Below, in pieces: positions 4,650 through 27,022 of a stretch of DNA of 64,000 nt. The notes under the pieces were generated by a model. That model did no database searches. It was given only the letters and a program-made list of their open reading frames with translations, and was not told the origin of the DNA. Numbering within the stretch: position 1 is the stretch's first letter; each line of letters begins with the position of its first letter. Origin of the DNA: Bacteroidia bacterium (GTDB lineage: Bacteria; Bacteroidota; Ignavibacteria; SZUA-365). The stretch lies in NCBI GenBank assembly GCA_027493955.1, contig JAOSJT010000001.1, positions 1,007,131 to 1,071,130 on the forward strand. Direction: 5' to 3'. Both the position numbers and the translations under genes were made by a program.

Positions 4650-5726
4650 TCAGAATTTCGACCCGGGATGCTTTTTCATCAATTTCTTGTAATCCTTCAG
4701 AACCTTGCCGAAGATTTTCTCGTTGCGTCGGCGTTCGGCGACGGTGCTTTCGAAATGCGCGCGCTCGCGTTCCATCTTCATGAAATTCTCGTAGGTGCCG
4801 TTGTCGAGTTCTCCGCTGTCGAGGGCTGCGAGAACCCGGCAGCCGATTTCGGACGTATGCGTGCAATCAGGAAAACGGCATTCACGTGAAAGCTCGCTTA
4901 TTCTGTCGAAGGTACGTTCCAGGCCTTCTCCGGCATCCGCTATGCCCACCTCGCGCATTCCGGGATTATCGATGAGAATGCCTCCGCCGTCAAGCACGAC
5001 CAGCTCACGATGCGTGGTGACGTGCCGACCCTTGCTGGTGCTGTCGCTGATTGCATCCGTGCGCATGAGCGTTTTGCCGGAAAGATGGTTGAGCAGAGTA
5101 GACTTCCCCACCCCGGATGAACCAAGCAGACAGTGCGTTTTCCCTACCGCGATGCATGCCCGGAGTTCGGAATATCCCTCTTCTGTTTCACTGCTGATCG
5201 CGAGGACCGGAACATCATCGATGCGCGACCGGACGCGTTCCAGGATGACAGACAGGTCCGCGGCATCGATCAAATCGATTTTCGTGAGTAAAATGATCGG
5301 CCGGACGTTCGATGCGTAGCAAATGGTCAGGTAGCGCTCGAGACGGTTGATGTTGAAATCCCTGTCCGCGGCCTGCACCAGGAACGCCACGTCGATATTC
5401 GCCGCGATGACCTGAATTTCCGCATGTTTGCCCACGGCTTGTCGCCTGATCACCGAATGCCGCGGAAGCACGGCATGAATGACCGCCAGTTCGGGATCGC
5501 TGATGGATACGGCCACCCAGTCGCCCACTGCAGGAAAGTCCTCGCGACCCCGTGCGGAGAAGCGGAGGGTTCCGGTGATCTCCCCGCTGTACTCTCCCGC
5601 TGCGGCACGGACGACGTAGCGTTCCTTATGCTCGGCGATGACGCGGGCGGGTTGGAATGCTGCGAAGTCATTGGTCGTGAACAGGTTTGAAAAATGTTCG
5701 TCGTAACCGAGTTCCTGAAGTGTCAT
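4650..5726 (-). CDS. rsgA: Small ribosomal subunit biogenesis GTPase RsgA
   Basis: Late-stage 30S maturation GTPase, 358 residues. The domain order is that of RsgA: an N-terminal OB fold (about 1-100), then a circularly permuted GTPase in which the G4 motif LLTKIDLI comes before the P-loop LLGSSGVGKSTLLNHL, with G3 as DNPGMRE, and a C-terminal zinc finger CRFPDCTHTSEIGC. A His-containing switch region precedes DNPGMRE (GRHVTTHREL), the presumed catalytic His of this family. The basic C-terminus KKLMKKHPGSKF is typical. The ATG at 5726 lacks a strong ribosome-binding site. It stands alone, with a 250-bp gap upstream. Confidence 0.96.
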   Translation of the reverse strand: MTLQELGYDEHFSNLFTTNDFAAFQPARVIAEHKERYVVRAAAGEYSGEITGTLRFSARGREDFPAVGDWVAVSISDPELAVIHAVLPRHSVIRRQAVGKHAEIQVIAANIDVAFLVQAADRDFNINRLERYLTICYASNVRPIILLTKIDLIDAADLSVILERVRSRIDDVPVLAISSETEEGYSELRACIAVGKTHCLLGSSGVGKSTLLNHLSGKTLMRTDAISDSTSKGRHVTTHRELVVLDGGGILIDNPGMREVGIADAGEGLERTFDRISELSRECRFPDCTHTSEIGCRVLAALDSGELDNGTYENFMKMERERAHFESTVAERRRNEKIFGKVLKDYKKLMKKHPGSKF

Positions 5727-23766: not shown

Positions 23767-24576
23767 ATGAATAAACACCGAGTCTCCACGATAAAGAGTA
23801 CGAATATCCCGGATGACGTGTCCGTACACGCGCACGCCCTGACACGGCGCTTCGGAACATTCACCGCGGTGGACGAGATTTCACTGGATGTCCACAAAGG
23901 AGAGATCTTCGGTTTTCTCGGTGCCAACGGTGCGGGCAAGACCACTGCGATACGCATGTTCTGCGGTCTGCTGGCTCCCACCGGAGGCGAAGCGCGCGTG
24001 GGCGGCTACGACGTGGCGACGCAGCCCGCGAAGATACGACAGAACATCGGCTACATGAGTCAGAAGTTCTCACTGTACGAAGACCTGACCGTCGCACAGA
24101 ACATCGAATTCTACGGCGGTATGTACGGGCTGTCTCGCAAGCACATATTTGACGCCACCGAACGCCTGCTCAACGAATTGGACATGCACAGTCAGCGCAA
24201 TACCCTGACGCGGGCACTTCCCCTCGGATGGAAACAGCGTCTGGCCCTCAGCGCCGCGCTCCTCCACAATCCGGACATCCTGTTTCTCGATGAACCGACC
24301 GGCGGTGTGGATCCCATTTCCCGCAGGAATTTCTGGCGCATCATTTACGACATCGCCGCGGCGGGTACGACGGTGTTCGTTACCACGCATTACATGGACG
24401 AGGCGGAATACTGCGGACGAGTTTCCATCATGCATCAGGGCCGCATTATCGCAATGGGTACCCCCTCCGCATTGAAACGCACGCACGGTCTGGGCAGCAT
24501 GCAGGAGATCTTTGTCCACCTGATCGACGGCAACAATAGTACGCGGCCGCGACGCTCGGGGGGAGGAAGGCCATGA
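23767..24576 (+). CDS. ABC transporter ATPase, second nucleotide-binding protein (YbhF C-half-like)
   Basis: 269 residues from ATG 23767; a TTG at 23743, overlapping the previous stop, is an alternative. Walker A FLGANGAGKTTAIRMF, Q-loop IGYMSQKFSLYEDLTV, a degenerate signature LPLGWKQRLALS in place of LSGGxxQ, Walker B ILFLDEPTGGVDP and a standard H-loop VTTHYMDEAEY. The degenerate signature is common for the second NBD of YbhF/DrrA-type exporters. Together with the first ATPase it should form an asymmetric heterodimer: one lacks the H-loop His, the other the canonical signature. It overlaps the following permease gene by 4 nt. Confidence 0.92.
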   Translation: MNKHRVSTIKSTNIPDDVSVHAHALTRRFGTFTAVDEISLDVHKGEIFGFLGANGAGKTTAIRMFCGLLAPTGGEARVGGYDVATQPAKIRQNIGYMSQKFSLYEDLTVAQNIEFYGGMYGLSRKHIFDATERLLNELDMHSQRNTLTRALPLGWKQRLALSAALLHNPDILFLDEPTGGVDPISRRNFWRIIYDIAAAGTTVFVTTHYMDEAEYCGRVSIMHQGRIIAMGTPSALKRTHGLGSMQEIFVHLIDGNNSTRPRRSGGGRP

Positions 24577-25676
24577 GGCGCAGACTGTACGCGATTCTCC
24601 GTAAGGAGTTCATTCACATAGTCCGCGACTGGCGCTCGCTGCTGATCGTCATTCTCATGCCGCTCGCGATGATCATCCTGTACGGTTATGCGATCACACT
24701 GGACATGCGCAATATTCGCTTCGCGGTCATCGATGAGGCGCGCAGCCCGGAAAGCCGCGAGATCATTCGGGCGTTCAGCGAAAACGGATTTTTCGTGCGG
24801 ACACCTGGGGACTTGACGCATGGGGATATAGAGCGAAGCTTTCTGCATCGCACGGTCGCTCTCGTCATCATCATTCCGCAAGATTTTTCAACGGACCTGC
24901 TTCGCGACGGACGCGCACGCGTTCAGCTCATTATCGATGCGACAGACAGCAACGCAGGGACCTTCATCAGTGCCTACGCGGAACAGGTGCTGACACTGGC
25001 CTCTTCGCGTCTGAATGGACAGCCGCGTATGCTGTTCGACATAACACCGCGCATTTTCTACAATCCCGATATGAAGAGCGCGTATTTTTTCGTCCCTGGT
25101 TTGGTGGCGCTCATCCTCATGCTCATTTCCGCGTTACTGACTTCCATTGCCATCACGCGCGAAAAAGAGACCGGTACGATGGAACAAATACTGGTATCGC
25201 CTGTGCGTCCGGTGGAAATCATCGTGGGCAAAGTTGCGCCGTATATTGTGCTCGGACTACTGAACGCTGTGGTGATCATTGTCAGTGCGAGGCTGCTGTT
25301 CGACGTACCGATACGCGGAGATCTGCTGCTGTTGGCATTCCTCTCGTTGATCTATGTGTTTGTGGCCCTCAGTTTCGGACTGCTCTTCTCCACCGTGGCC
25401 AGGACACAGCAGGTGGCGATGTTCATGACTCTGATGGCCACGATACTTCCGACCATGATGCTGAGCGGTTTCATTTTTCCGGTGGCCAGCATGCCTGAGG
25501 TTCTGCGCTGGATATCGCGCATCATCCCCGCGACTTACTACCTCGACATTATCCGGGGCATCATGCTCAAAGGCATCGGGTTGCGTGAACTCGCGACGCA
25601 AGCCGCAGTTCTCACCGTATTCGGCCTTGTGTTGCTCGCTGTCGCCACCAAGCGCTTCAGCGTCAGATTGGACTAA
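24573..25676 (+). CDS. ABC-2 type transporter permease (YbhS-like)
   Basis: 367 residues with the ABC-2 topology: one N-terminal membrane segment (LLIVILMPLAMIILYGYAI), a large extracytoplasmic domain (about 45-185), then five clustered segments in the C-terminal half, including the family motif TREKETGTMEQILVSPVRP between segments 2 and 3 that couples to the ATPases. The penultimate part LSGFIFPVASMPEVLRWISRIIPATYYLDIIRGI is the conserved ABC-2 export motif. It corresponds to YbhS of the ybhGFSR exporter. It is followed by a 218-bp repeat-bearing gap before the second permease. Confidence 0.93.
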   Translation: MRRRLYAILRKEFIHIVRDWRSLLIVILMPLAMIILYGYAITLDMRNIRFAVIDEARSPESREIIRAFSENGFFVRTPGDLTHGDIERSFLHRTVALVIIIPQDFSTDLLRDGRARVQLIIDATDSNAGTFISAYAEQVLTLASSRLNGQPRMLFDITPRIFYNPDMKSAYFFVPGLVALILMLISALLTSIAITREKETGTMEQILVSPVRPVEIIVGKVAPYIVLGLLNAVVIIVSARLLFDVPIRGDLLLLAFLSLIYVFVALSFGLLFSTVARTQQVAMFMTLMATILPTMMLSGFIFPVASMPEVLRWISRIIPATYYLDIIRGIMLKGIGLRELATQAAVLTVFGLVLLAVATKRFSVRLD

Positions 25677-25677
25677 T

Positions 25678-25896
25678 GATTGACGACGTACGATGTACGA
25701 TTGACGATTTATTTGCTTCAGGCGGAACGATCTCCGATTAATTCGTGCAAAACAGTACTGTAAAATCGTGCGTTATTCATCAGATACAATTTTTGAGGGT
25801 ACCCATATGGCAACGCGGGCTCAACGGTAGAGAGCGTTAATTCGTCGTTCGTGATTCGTAATTGAAAACCGTCAATCGTAGTCGTACATCGTCAAT
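25678..25896. repeat. Heptad-built inverted repeat pair flanking a ~155-bp insert between the two permease genes
   Basis: The left arm starts just after the permease stop and reads as 7-bp units of type GATNNAC: GATTGAC GACGTAC, then GATGTAC GATTGAC GATTTAT (25678-25712). The right arm, 25866-25896, is on the opposite strand; read in reverse complement it aligns with 25679-25710 over about 32 positions with three substitutions and a one-base gap. Further degenerate 7-mers run leftward from it to about 25840. The arms can pair in mRNA as a long stem. The right arm supplies the first two bases of the next gene's ATG. Confidence 0.8.
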
Positions 25897-27022
25897 GGTT
25901 AAACGCATTTTTTATCTGGTACAGAAAGAGTTTCGGCAAGTCTTCCGGGACAAGTCGATGATCGCAATTCTCTTTGTCGTACCGTTCATACAGTTGGTGC
26001 TGCTCGGCAACGCCATCACGACGGAGGTGAAGCATATTCCCCTGCTCATCAGTGACCAGGACAACACCCCGTTGAGCCGCGGACTGGCGGCGGCATTCGG
26101 GAACATGGTGTATTTTGATGTGCTGGGAAACGAAACGGATTACAGCGAATTAACGCGTTCGCTGGACGAAGGGCACACCAAGGCGGCGCTGATCATCCCG
26201 AAACACTTCCAACGGGATGTGGTCCTCTCGCGCAGACCGGCTGTTCAGGTGCTGCTCGACGGACTGGACGGCAATACGGCAGGTGTTGCGCTCAGATACA
26301 TTTCGCAGATCACCGGGCAGTATCAGGGACGTCTCGTTTCTGATCAGCCGGCACTGGTAGCGATGTTGCGCGACAACCGCTCCATTACCGCCGAAACGCG
26401 ATTCTGGTTTAATCCGGAAATGGAGAGCAAAGTCTACGTTGTACCTGGTATCGTGGGTCTGTTGCTTCTCATCATCACGGTGTTTCTCACCAGCATGAGC
26501 ATCGTGCGCGAAAAGGAGATCGGCACACTGGAGCAGCTCATGGTGACGCCTCTGCGTTCTTCGGAGCTTATACTGGGAAAAATCATTCCCTTCTCCATTC
26601 TCGGCATGATAGAAATCAGTATTGCCATGGTGCTGGTGTATGTGCTGTTTGGTATCGGCGTGGAAGGCAGCGTACTCTTGCTCTTCGCCGAATCCGGACT
26701 GTTCATTCTCACCACGCTGGGGGTGGGCATTCTCATCTCCACGATATCGGAAACGCAGCAGCAGGCGCTGTTTGTGGGGTGGTTTTTCATGATATTCGCC
26801 ATCATGCTCTCAGGTTTTTTCGTACCCATCGCCAACATGCCCGACGTATTGCAATGGGTGACCTATCTCAATCCGCTGCGCTATTTCCTGACGGTGGTGC
26901 GGGAAATCTACCTGAAGGGCAGTTCGATTGAGTACCTGCTCCCCGAAACCCTGGCGATGATGCTGTTCGGTGTCATCGTATTCAGCACCGCGGTATGGCG
27001 GTACCAGCGGCGGCTGGCATAA
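25895..27022 (+). CDS. ABC-2 type transporter permease (YbhR-like)
   Basis: 375 residues with the same ABC-2 layout as its neighbour: N-terminal segment (IAILFVVPFIQLVLLGNAI), a large extracytoplasmic domain, and five clustered C-terminal segments with VREKEIGTLEQLMVTPLRSSELILGK and the export motif LSGFFVPIANMPDVLQWVTYLNPLRYFLTVVREI. It corresponds to YbhR and should pair with the YbhS-like permease. The start ATG at 25895 lies at the end of the right repeat arm; a TTG at 25862 inside the repeat would add 11 residues. Separation from the rest of the operon by a repeat element is unusual for genes whose products must be equimolar. Confidence 0.92.
   Translation: MVKRIFYLVQKEFRQVFRDKSMIAILFVVPFIQLVLLGNAITTEVKHIPLLISDQDNTPLSRGLAAAFGNMVYFDVLGNETDYSELTRSLDEGHTKAALIIPKHFQRDVVLSRRPAVQVLLDGLDGNTAGVALRYISQITGQYQGRLVSDQPALVAMLRDNRSITAETRFWFNPEMESKVYVVPGIVGLLLLIITVFLTSMSIVREKEIGTLEQLMVTPLRSSELILGKIIPFSILGMIEISIAMVLVYVLFGIGVEGSVLLLFAESGLFILTTLGVGILISTISETQQQALFVGWFFMIFAIMLSGFFVPIANMPDVLQWVTYLNPLRYFLTVVREIYLKGSSIEYLLPETLAMMLFGVIVFSTAVWRYQRRLA

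Follow-up and report, generated by a model that had tools for sequence, protein, structure and literature searches.

A 218-bp insert between two permease genes of a Bacteroidota genome is probably a miniature S23/IVS-type mobile element bounded by 7-bp repeat arrays

We analyzed a window of 64,000 nucleotides (the whole stretch from position 1,007,131 to 1,071,130 of contig JAOSJT010000001.1, assembly GCA_027493955.1, from a Bacteroidia bacterium of the SZUA-365 lineage), in which two permease genes of an efflux operon are separated by a 218-bp insert. Our results indicated that this insert is probably a protein-less miniature of an S23/intervening sequence (IVS)-type mobile element, lying between convergent arrays of 7-bp units. 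Full-size members of this type would carry an S23 gene (23S_rRNA_IVP) between two such arrays. An inverted repeat bounds the insert, the same junction is short in relatives, the arrays are dispersed in the genome, S23 genes lie between convergent arrays elsewhere, and one phage junction was found in filled and empty forms. An earlier sequence-only reading had offered three origins for the insert, namely, a mobile miniature element, a slippage-derived array, or an mRNA stem that sets permease stoichiometry; the first of these was favored by the data presented here.

Results

Anatomy of the insert

The permease 1 gene (24573 to 25676) and the permease 2 gene (25895 to 27022, an open frame throughout) lie on the plus strand and flank the insert upstream and downstream. 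Both encode ABC-2 type transporter proteins (PF12698, E 2.9e-54 and E 1.1e-48, respectively). The insert (25677 to 25894, no strand assigned) occupies all of the gap from the permease 1 stop codon to the permease 2 start codon. As the sequence-only reading had stated, the remaining junctions of the operon are 12 bp long or overlapping. The left terminal array (25678 to 25712, plus strand) begins one base after the start of the gap and contains five heptads, GATTGAC, GACGTAC, GATGTAC, GATTGAC, and GATTTAT, which can be read in an ACGA-NNN register. The right terminal array (25866 to 25894, minus strand) is inverted and lies immediately 5' of the ATG at 25895. Thus, two convergent arrays of short tandem units lie at the ends of the insert, which is the layout that we looked for in an S23/IVS-type element.

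Nucleotides 25681 to 25710 of the left array pair with the right array in 26 of 30 columns. This pairing had a score of 21, while the maximum in 5,000 mononucleotide shuffles was 15, and no other 218-bp frame across the window, taken in 10-bp steps, reached 21. From this pairing and the genome-wide counts given below, we rejected a chance origin of the repeat and its arrays, and the heptad-built inverted repeat that the sequence-only reading had described proved to be real. The right arm was indeed an inverted array at the start of permease 2, but it was less regular than had been claimed: it includes one 6-mer, and beyond 25866 only degenerate units were found. These form a degenerate, tentatively assigned inner part of the right array (25843 to 25865, minus strand) in which GAATTAC-, GAATCAC-, and GAACGAC-like units could be read from the sequence. 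The right arm had also been said to supply part of the start codon. The best pairing stops at 25894 and abuts the ATG, and a weaker pairing (25674 to 25693 with 25882 to 25901, 85%) runs through it. When 25674 to 25901 was folded as RNA, the z scores were -3.7 for the plus strand and -4.7 for the minus strand, and none of 200 shuffles was as good on either strand. Given this stable fold, an mRNA stem that sets permease stoichiometry is possible.

The interior of the insert (25713 to 25842, no strand assigned) has no recognizable S23 frame and no second genomic copy. No match to S23 (PF05635) was detected up to E 0.1 in frames of at least 40 amino acids in the locus that spans the insert (L001), and no Rfam match was detected up to E 1 in 25500 to 26100. 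Because no S23 open reading frame (ORF) lies between the arrays, we refer to the insert as a miniature derivative and not as a full S23/IVS-type member. The interior also contains small palindromes between window positions 25754 and 25815 (ACAGTACTGT, GGGTACCC, and CATATG).

The same junction in related genomes

The two permease genes were located together in 59 related entries, and 51 distinct junctions remained after 8 repeats of the same junction were dropped. In 49 of the 51, the gap was -4 to 97 bp and free of arrays. In the eight genomes of the same family that carry both genes, the gaps were 12 to 74 bp, and the repeat was absent from all of them, as expected for an S23/IVS-type insert at an orthologous junction. 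In three more genomes of this family, the permeases were not matched at E 1e-80.

The two exceptions were also bounded by heptads. In L110 (genome G036), the gap was 118 bp, with convergent heptads of the GGTTAGT/GGTCAGT type and a fold z score of -3.4. In L108 (genome G032), the gap was 505 bp and consisted of AGTATAA-type heptads, a 119-amino-acid ORF, and inverted heptads. The ORF matched PF05635, the four-helix-bundle family 23S_rRNA_IVP, with an E value of 5e-38, and its bAvd match was under the cutoff for that family. With the window insert included, this single junction thus holds a different heptad-bounded insert in each of three genomes.

ACGA-NNN arrays across the genome

The genome is a single contig of 5,237,942 bp (G000). 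The 220-bp unit proposed by the sequence-only reading was unique in it, and the arms alone recurred. Specifically, (GATNNAC)x3 with up to two mismatches gave 185 forward and 182 reverse matches (367 in all), and the reversed-pattern control gave 1 and 0. Within the window by itself, the count for this pattern of heptads was not significant (6 matches; the shuffle mean was 2.6, and 7 of 100 shuffles reached 6). The looser exact pattern (GANNNAC)x3 gave 101 matches, compared with 89 for its reversed control. We therefore used the tighter exact pattern ACGANKDACGANKDACGA, which had 78 matches at 44 sites and 2 matches in the reversed control. The sequence-only reading had named the absence of other copies, together with the same spacing kept in relatives, as the outcome that would speak against it; this outcome was not what we found.

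Next to array matches, we searched 56 array-centered segments (158 kb) for arrays of at least three units. This search yielded 59 arrays and none for four permuted motifs, and 53 of the 59 were of the ACGA-NNN class (class A). No predicted gene contained a class A array. Of the 47 arrays with both neighbors known, 41 were closer to their 5' neighbor, and 17 of the 53 started -14 to +8 bases from a co-oriented stop codon. For 12 of the 53 arrays, an inverted partner lay inward at a distance of up to 400 bp (score of at least 12; 7 at a score of at least 15), and for none did one lie outward. Likewise, pairing of individual matches gave eight convergent places, four of them with at least two matches per side, and no divergent place. 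An approximately 70-bp repeated element, which starts with CCTGCCCGCCGAAGCATC and ends with GGCGGGAC, was observed 3' of several arrays (G000:C1 positions 1235173, 1235277, 3150621, 4434941, and 5235118) and sometimes between two.

The units have the form GA-NNN-AC, and the variable triplet was GGG in three counted units. G-quadruplex heptads of the Xanthomonas/Nostoc type were rejected, as there is no fixed run of at least three G nucleotides per unit. Adjacent heptads were no more alike than expected by chance (identical triplets in 15 of 135 pairs versus 14.1 expected; 25 of 168 versus 28.7 in a within-array shuffle test), which weakens slippage as the source of the basic unit. In contrast, alternate heptads were more alike (32 of 115 versus 20.8 in shuffles, P 0.001), which suggests some slippage in 14-bp steps. 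When short tandem repeats with periods of 2 to 15 were counted in a 464-kb sample, periods 7 and 14 were found at 15 and 12 places, respectively, versus 0 to 4 for the others. The period-7 repeats span several sequences, such as CTCTCCG and GTTTAAC.

The constant ACGA, the variable triplet, and the dissimilarity of neighboring units are also what one might expect if the arrays were selected binding sites for a protein that reads 7-bp units, with a role in regulation or chromosome organization, like the ribbon-helix-helix ParB of pSM19035. Direct and inverted heptad arrays are a known layout for such binding (PMC9499535), and the strand polarity described below would fit as well. However, the junction array is missing from same-family genomes that have both genes, and other heptads occur at this junction in other genomes. 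Moreover, in a phylum sample of 296 genomes searched with one mismatch, this genome had 161 matches and the next had 23, and only 89 had any match. We consider selected binding sites to be an improbable explanation.

S23 genes between heptad arrays in genomes and plasmids

The window anatomy plus cargo was found in G122, a distant member of the same phylum. At locus L191, an ACGA-NNN array and its inverted counterpart, which pair with a score of 21, enclose an S23 ORF (PF05635, E 1.4e-12); a TAG stop codon precedes the first array, and the ATG of the next gene follows the second. ACGA-NNN ends are therefore common to the window insert and an S23 element. Among 26 arrays in 20 loci of G122 and G154, an inward inverted partner was present for 6 (score of at least 11) and an outward one for none. 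An ORF-less ACGA-NNN pair that encloses about 100 bp was found in G154 (L208, near 4888 to 5016). Some other candidate pairs were less clear: at L202 (fold z score of -2.85), an array was present on the right but only about one unit on the left, and the left pattern match lies in coding sequence; two L204 pairs share one right-hand match.

In the genome studied here, locus L212 (G000:C1:3158200-3162400, minus strand) contains convergent AAGGTGAA arrays that enclose an S23 gene; this gene is read in two overlapping frames and seems to be broken. A weak S23-like match near an array of class B (GATTAAC/GATTCCC/GATTCAC; L029) was examined and dropped as chance.

S23 genes were present in 38 plasmid records; 16 were taken, and 14 were scored after a near-copy (L176) and a broken gene (L180) were left out. 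The plasmid genes, mostly cyanobacterial, lie inside operons, and their array units include TCAGGAG, GGGAACA, GGTGTAG, and GCAGAAG, among others. Units of 8 bp were found at L188, and no arrays were found at L190. A periodic flank was detected at 11 of the 14 S23 loci, periodicity in both flanks at 6, and inverted flanks at 6; the corresponding numbers for 23 control genes were 8, 1, and 2. The S23 genes of three cyanobacterial plasmids (L177, L181, and L189) are in CRISPR-Cas operons, for example, in the orders cas10-S23-cmr3 and cas6-S23-cas4.

S23 loci in viral contigs

Thirty-five S23 loci were collected from viral contigs, and 30 remained, in 25 clusters, after two short matches and three exact duplicates were left out. 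Of the 30 loci, 22 showed periodicity at lag 7 or 8 in either flank and 24 had inverted flanks, compared with 16 and 6, respectively, of 283 random places. For the 25 clusters, we required periodicity of 12 of 14 in a flank and inverted flanks of 14 of 16. Lag 7 was detected in 17 of the 25, each of lags 4 to 6 and 8 to 12 was detected in 0 or 1, and inverted-repeat flanks were detected in 20. Control ORFs from the same viral loci showed lag 7 in 2 of 23 and inverted flanks in 0 of 23.

A filled and an empty form of one site were observed at the junction of the phage decoration and capsid genes. In the best 80 of 425 loci compared, the gap was 2 to 85 bp in 78 and 426 bp in two, L268 and L274, which are the contigs of S23 loci L235 and L240. 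In both, an antisense S23 gene lies between GGGTTTA-type heptad arrays and the insert runs from stop to start, as in the window. Because 78 of the 80 loci are empty, the S23 stretch of L268 and L274 is a discrete insert. The stop-to-start stretches of the two phages were identical at 421 of 429 positions (98.1%), while the adjoining upstream gene (372 bp) was 77.4% identical, the next 900 bp 78.6%, and the preceding 1.5 kb 89.2%. This pattern of identity would also fit the swap of a short segment between phages. A second search for empty sites, which used another phage gene, returned only the same two contigs.

Replichore polarity of the arrays

The strand of the ACGA-NNN arrays, most of which are one-sided, follows the replichore. 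Between 0.82 and 3.33 Mb, 20 arrays were on the plus strand and 1 was on the minus strand, versus 5 and 18 outside this region (Fisher 5e-7). The boundaries of the halves were set after the exact (GANNNAC)x3 matches had been inspected; a two-breakpoint permutation, which accounts for this post hoc choice, gave no strand arrangement as extreme in 5,000 trials. Looser clusters of at least two matches were distributed similarly (29 plus and 5 minus versus 7 plus and 18 minus). The minus-strand exceptions in the plus half were at 1080932, 1412283, 2979922, and 2664769, with others as right-hand arms at 2162097, 1979831, 2383403, and 902269. Plus-strand exceptions in the minus half were at 260563, 4190436, 4203088, and 4730115, with left-hand arms at 4826947 and 5209154. 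Class B and GTTTAAC arrays looked unpolarized by eye among the matches listed.

The dnaA gene is at 3.568 Mb. In sampled stretches, the GC skew was weak and changed sign at 0.94 to 1.0 Mb and at 3.4 to 3.8 Mb, with one contrary stretch at 2.97 Mb. From these positions, we infer that the array strand corresponds to the nascent lagging strand. The polarity cannot be attributed to gene strand, because the sampled genes between 0.82 and 3.33 Mb are mostly on the opposite strand.

A rival idea is that the arrays form spontaneously where DNA ends or forks stall, either because 3' ends are extended on the nascent lagging strand or through template switching; a pair of arrays would then enclose filler, and S23 would be a passenger that uses or adjoins them. 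Such an origin would account for the permutation result, for arrays that start at the edge of a spacer nearer the 5' neighbor and run inward, for inverted partners that are inward and never outward, and for the dominance of period 7 over several sequences. It does not predict S23 genes between arrays in such different hosts, nor a near-identical 429-bp stretch in two phages whose adjoining genes have diverged. In addition, the polarity was not evident from the contig-level matches of G122 and G154. Telomerase-like repeat addition of the DRT10 kind, an idea taken from PMC12632851, was examined and set aside: no PF00078 reverse transcriptase was detected in this genome at E 0.01, and the same search was positive in 3 of 14 control genomes. 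Overall, we regard a fork or DNA-end origin as unlikely, although more probable than the other rivals.

A strand bias could also come from repetitive extragenic palindromic (REP)-like elements spread by a Y1 transposase (REP-associated tyrosine transposase, RAYT), which would target single strands. The genome has one Y1_Tnp gene (L154, G000:C1:4215650). However, the 1.6 kb read around this gene lacks ACGA-NNN arrays and instead holds palindromic repeats that belong to the gene and are unlike the heptads. These flanks thus share no repeats with the arrays, which refutes REP-like spread as their direct source unless the family search missed a further RAYT, and we give this reading hardly any credence.

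Discussion

Weighing the mobile element interpretation

Several observations weigh against an S23/IVS-type element in the window. In this genome, the majority of ACGA-NNN arrays are one-sided and strand choice tracks the replichore, and a plain terminal-repeat model predicts neither; one-sided arrays are the majority in G122 and G154 as well. One possible cause of the one-sidedness is that the origin-side arm is lost as the lagging strand is synthesized. In the searched stretches of this genome, which together with the window make up 12.7% of the chromosome, ACGA-NNN arrays enclosed no S23 gene, and the one S23 gene detected there, at L212, has arrays of 8-bp units and not heptads. At about 66% protein identity, the nearest relatives are too diverged to reveal a target duplication at the window junction. 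The plasmid control was less clean, with more than a third of its genes (8 of 23) periodic, and the 25 viral clusters are not fully independent because similar TCGGCGTTCGGCC-type ends occur in L231, L233, L237, L242, and L260. Finally, the heptad sequence is free between the elements described here, and we know of no transposon that tolerates ends of free sequence.

Miniature inverted-repeat transposable elements (MITEs) are short and ORF-less and have terminal inverted repeats and dispersed ends. The window insert differs from them in that its ends are degenerate, its interior is not common to copies, and no transposase family was identified. Copies of a classical MITE family would be alike over their whole length, while here the likeness is confined to the arms; this unshared interior also counts against our interpretation. 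On balance, the short junctions of relatives, the dispersed arms, and the ACGA-NNN ends of the S23 element in G122 led us to conclude that the window insert is probably a miniature S23/IVS-type element.

Comparison with known repeats

Among known systems, a close counterpart is the IVS in the 23S rRNA gene of Coxiella burnetii, which contains an S23 ORF, GACAGAT heptamers beside the start codon, and a 28-bp terminal stem. It is excised by RNase III, and the host RNA is still usable; S23 proteins are said in that report to have no known function (PMC4990558). The window insert resembles this IVS in its terminal inverted repeats, its heptamers, and a predicted stem of about 28 to 30 bp. In contrast to the IVS, it lies at an mRNA junction and not in rRNA, and it lacks an S23 ORF.

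The GGGAATC and GGGGA(T/C)T heptads of Xanthomonas and Nostoc mostly occur in about four units that are partly constant and partly variable. Many are intergenic and nearer the 5' neighbor, and 70 and 75 convergent pairs were reported for two Xanthomonas genomes (Rehm 2015, PMC4692102). The arrays studied here are alike in unit number, part-constant units, intergenic location, nearer 5' neighbor, and the occurrence of convergent pairs. They differ in having no G-runs, and hence no quadruplex, and in being polarized by replichore; no leading or lagging preference was described for the Xanthomonas repeats (PMC4692102). The TAACTGA repeats of Beggiatoaceae are likewise dispersed intergenic 7-bp arrays, with sporadic occurrence in Bacteroidetes and Cyanobacteria (MacGregor 2015, PMC4679880). 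These differ from our arrays in that they are mostly just 5' of start codons and that related heptamers are rarely repeated (PMC4679880). The main text of PMC4692102 makes no mention of S23, four helix, or 23S, and that of PMC4679880 makes no mention of S23 or four helix.

Proposed mechanism and significance

We propose that the window insert derives from an S23-bearing element that entered precisely at the junction of the two permease genes, after the stop codon of the first and before the start codon of the second, with the two ACGA-NNN arrays serving as terminal inverted repeats. Movement may have been provided in trans by S23 or by some other enzyme. In the operon mRNA, the arms would pair into a stem of about 30 bp, and by analogy with the S23-bearing IVS of Coxiella, this stem may be cut by RNase III. 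Such a cut would separate the two permease cistrons.

The wider link between S23 and heptad arrays is a larger finding than the window repeat. We are inclined, with confidence only a little above even, to think that a widespread class of mobile elements is defined by S23 genes, with 7-bp-periodic ends of almost free sequence in which conservation is limited to the period and the convergent layout. This class would then include, as full-size, decayed, and miniature forms, the 23S rRNA IVS, the orphan "four helix bundle protein" genes in operons and phages, and the heptamers of Xanthomonas, cyanobacteria, and Bacteroidota, with the window insert among the miniatures. Among the papers listed in a literature search, made largely outside subscription journals, none was seen to state this link beyond the single Coxiella IVS.

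Heptameric intergenic repeats have been described repeatedly in bacteria, with no agreed role (PMC4692102, PMC4679880, PMC6749651). The S23 link gives them a testable origin: the repeats would be the ends of S23 elements, and S23 would be a protein that recognizes, or helps to copy, ends with a 7-bp period. The link also predicts RNase III cuts wherever such inserts lie in mRNAs.
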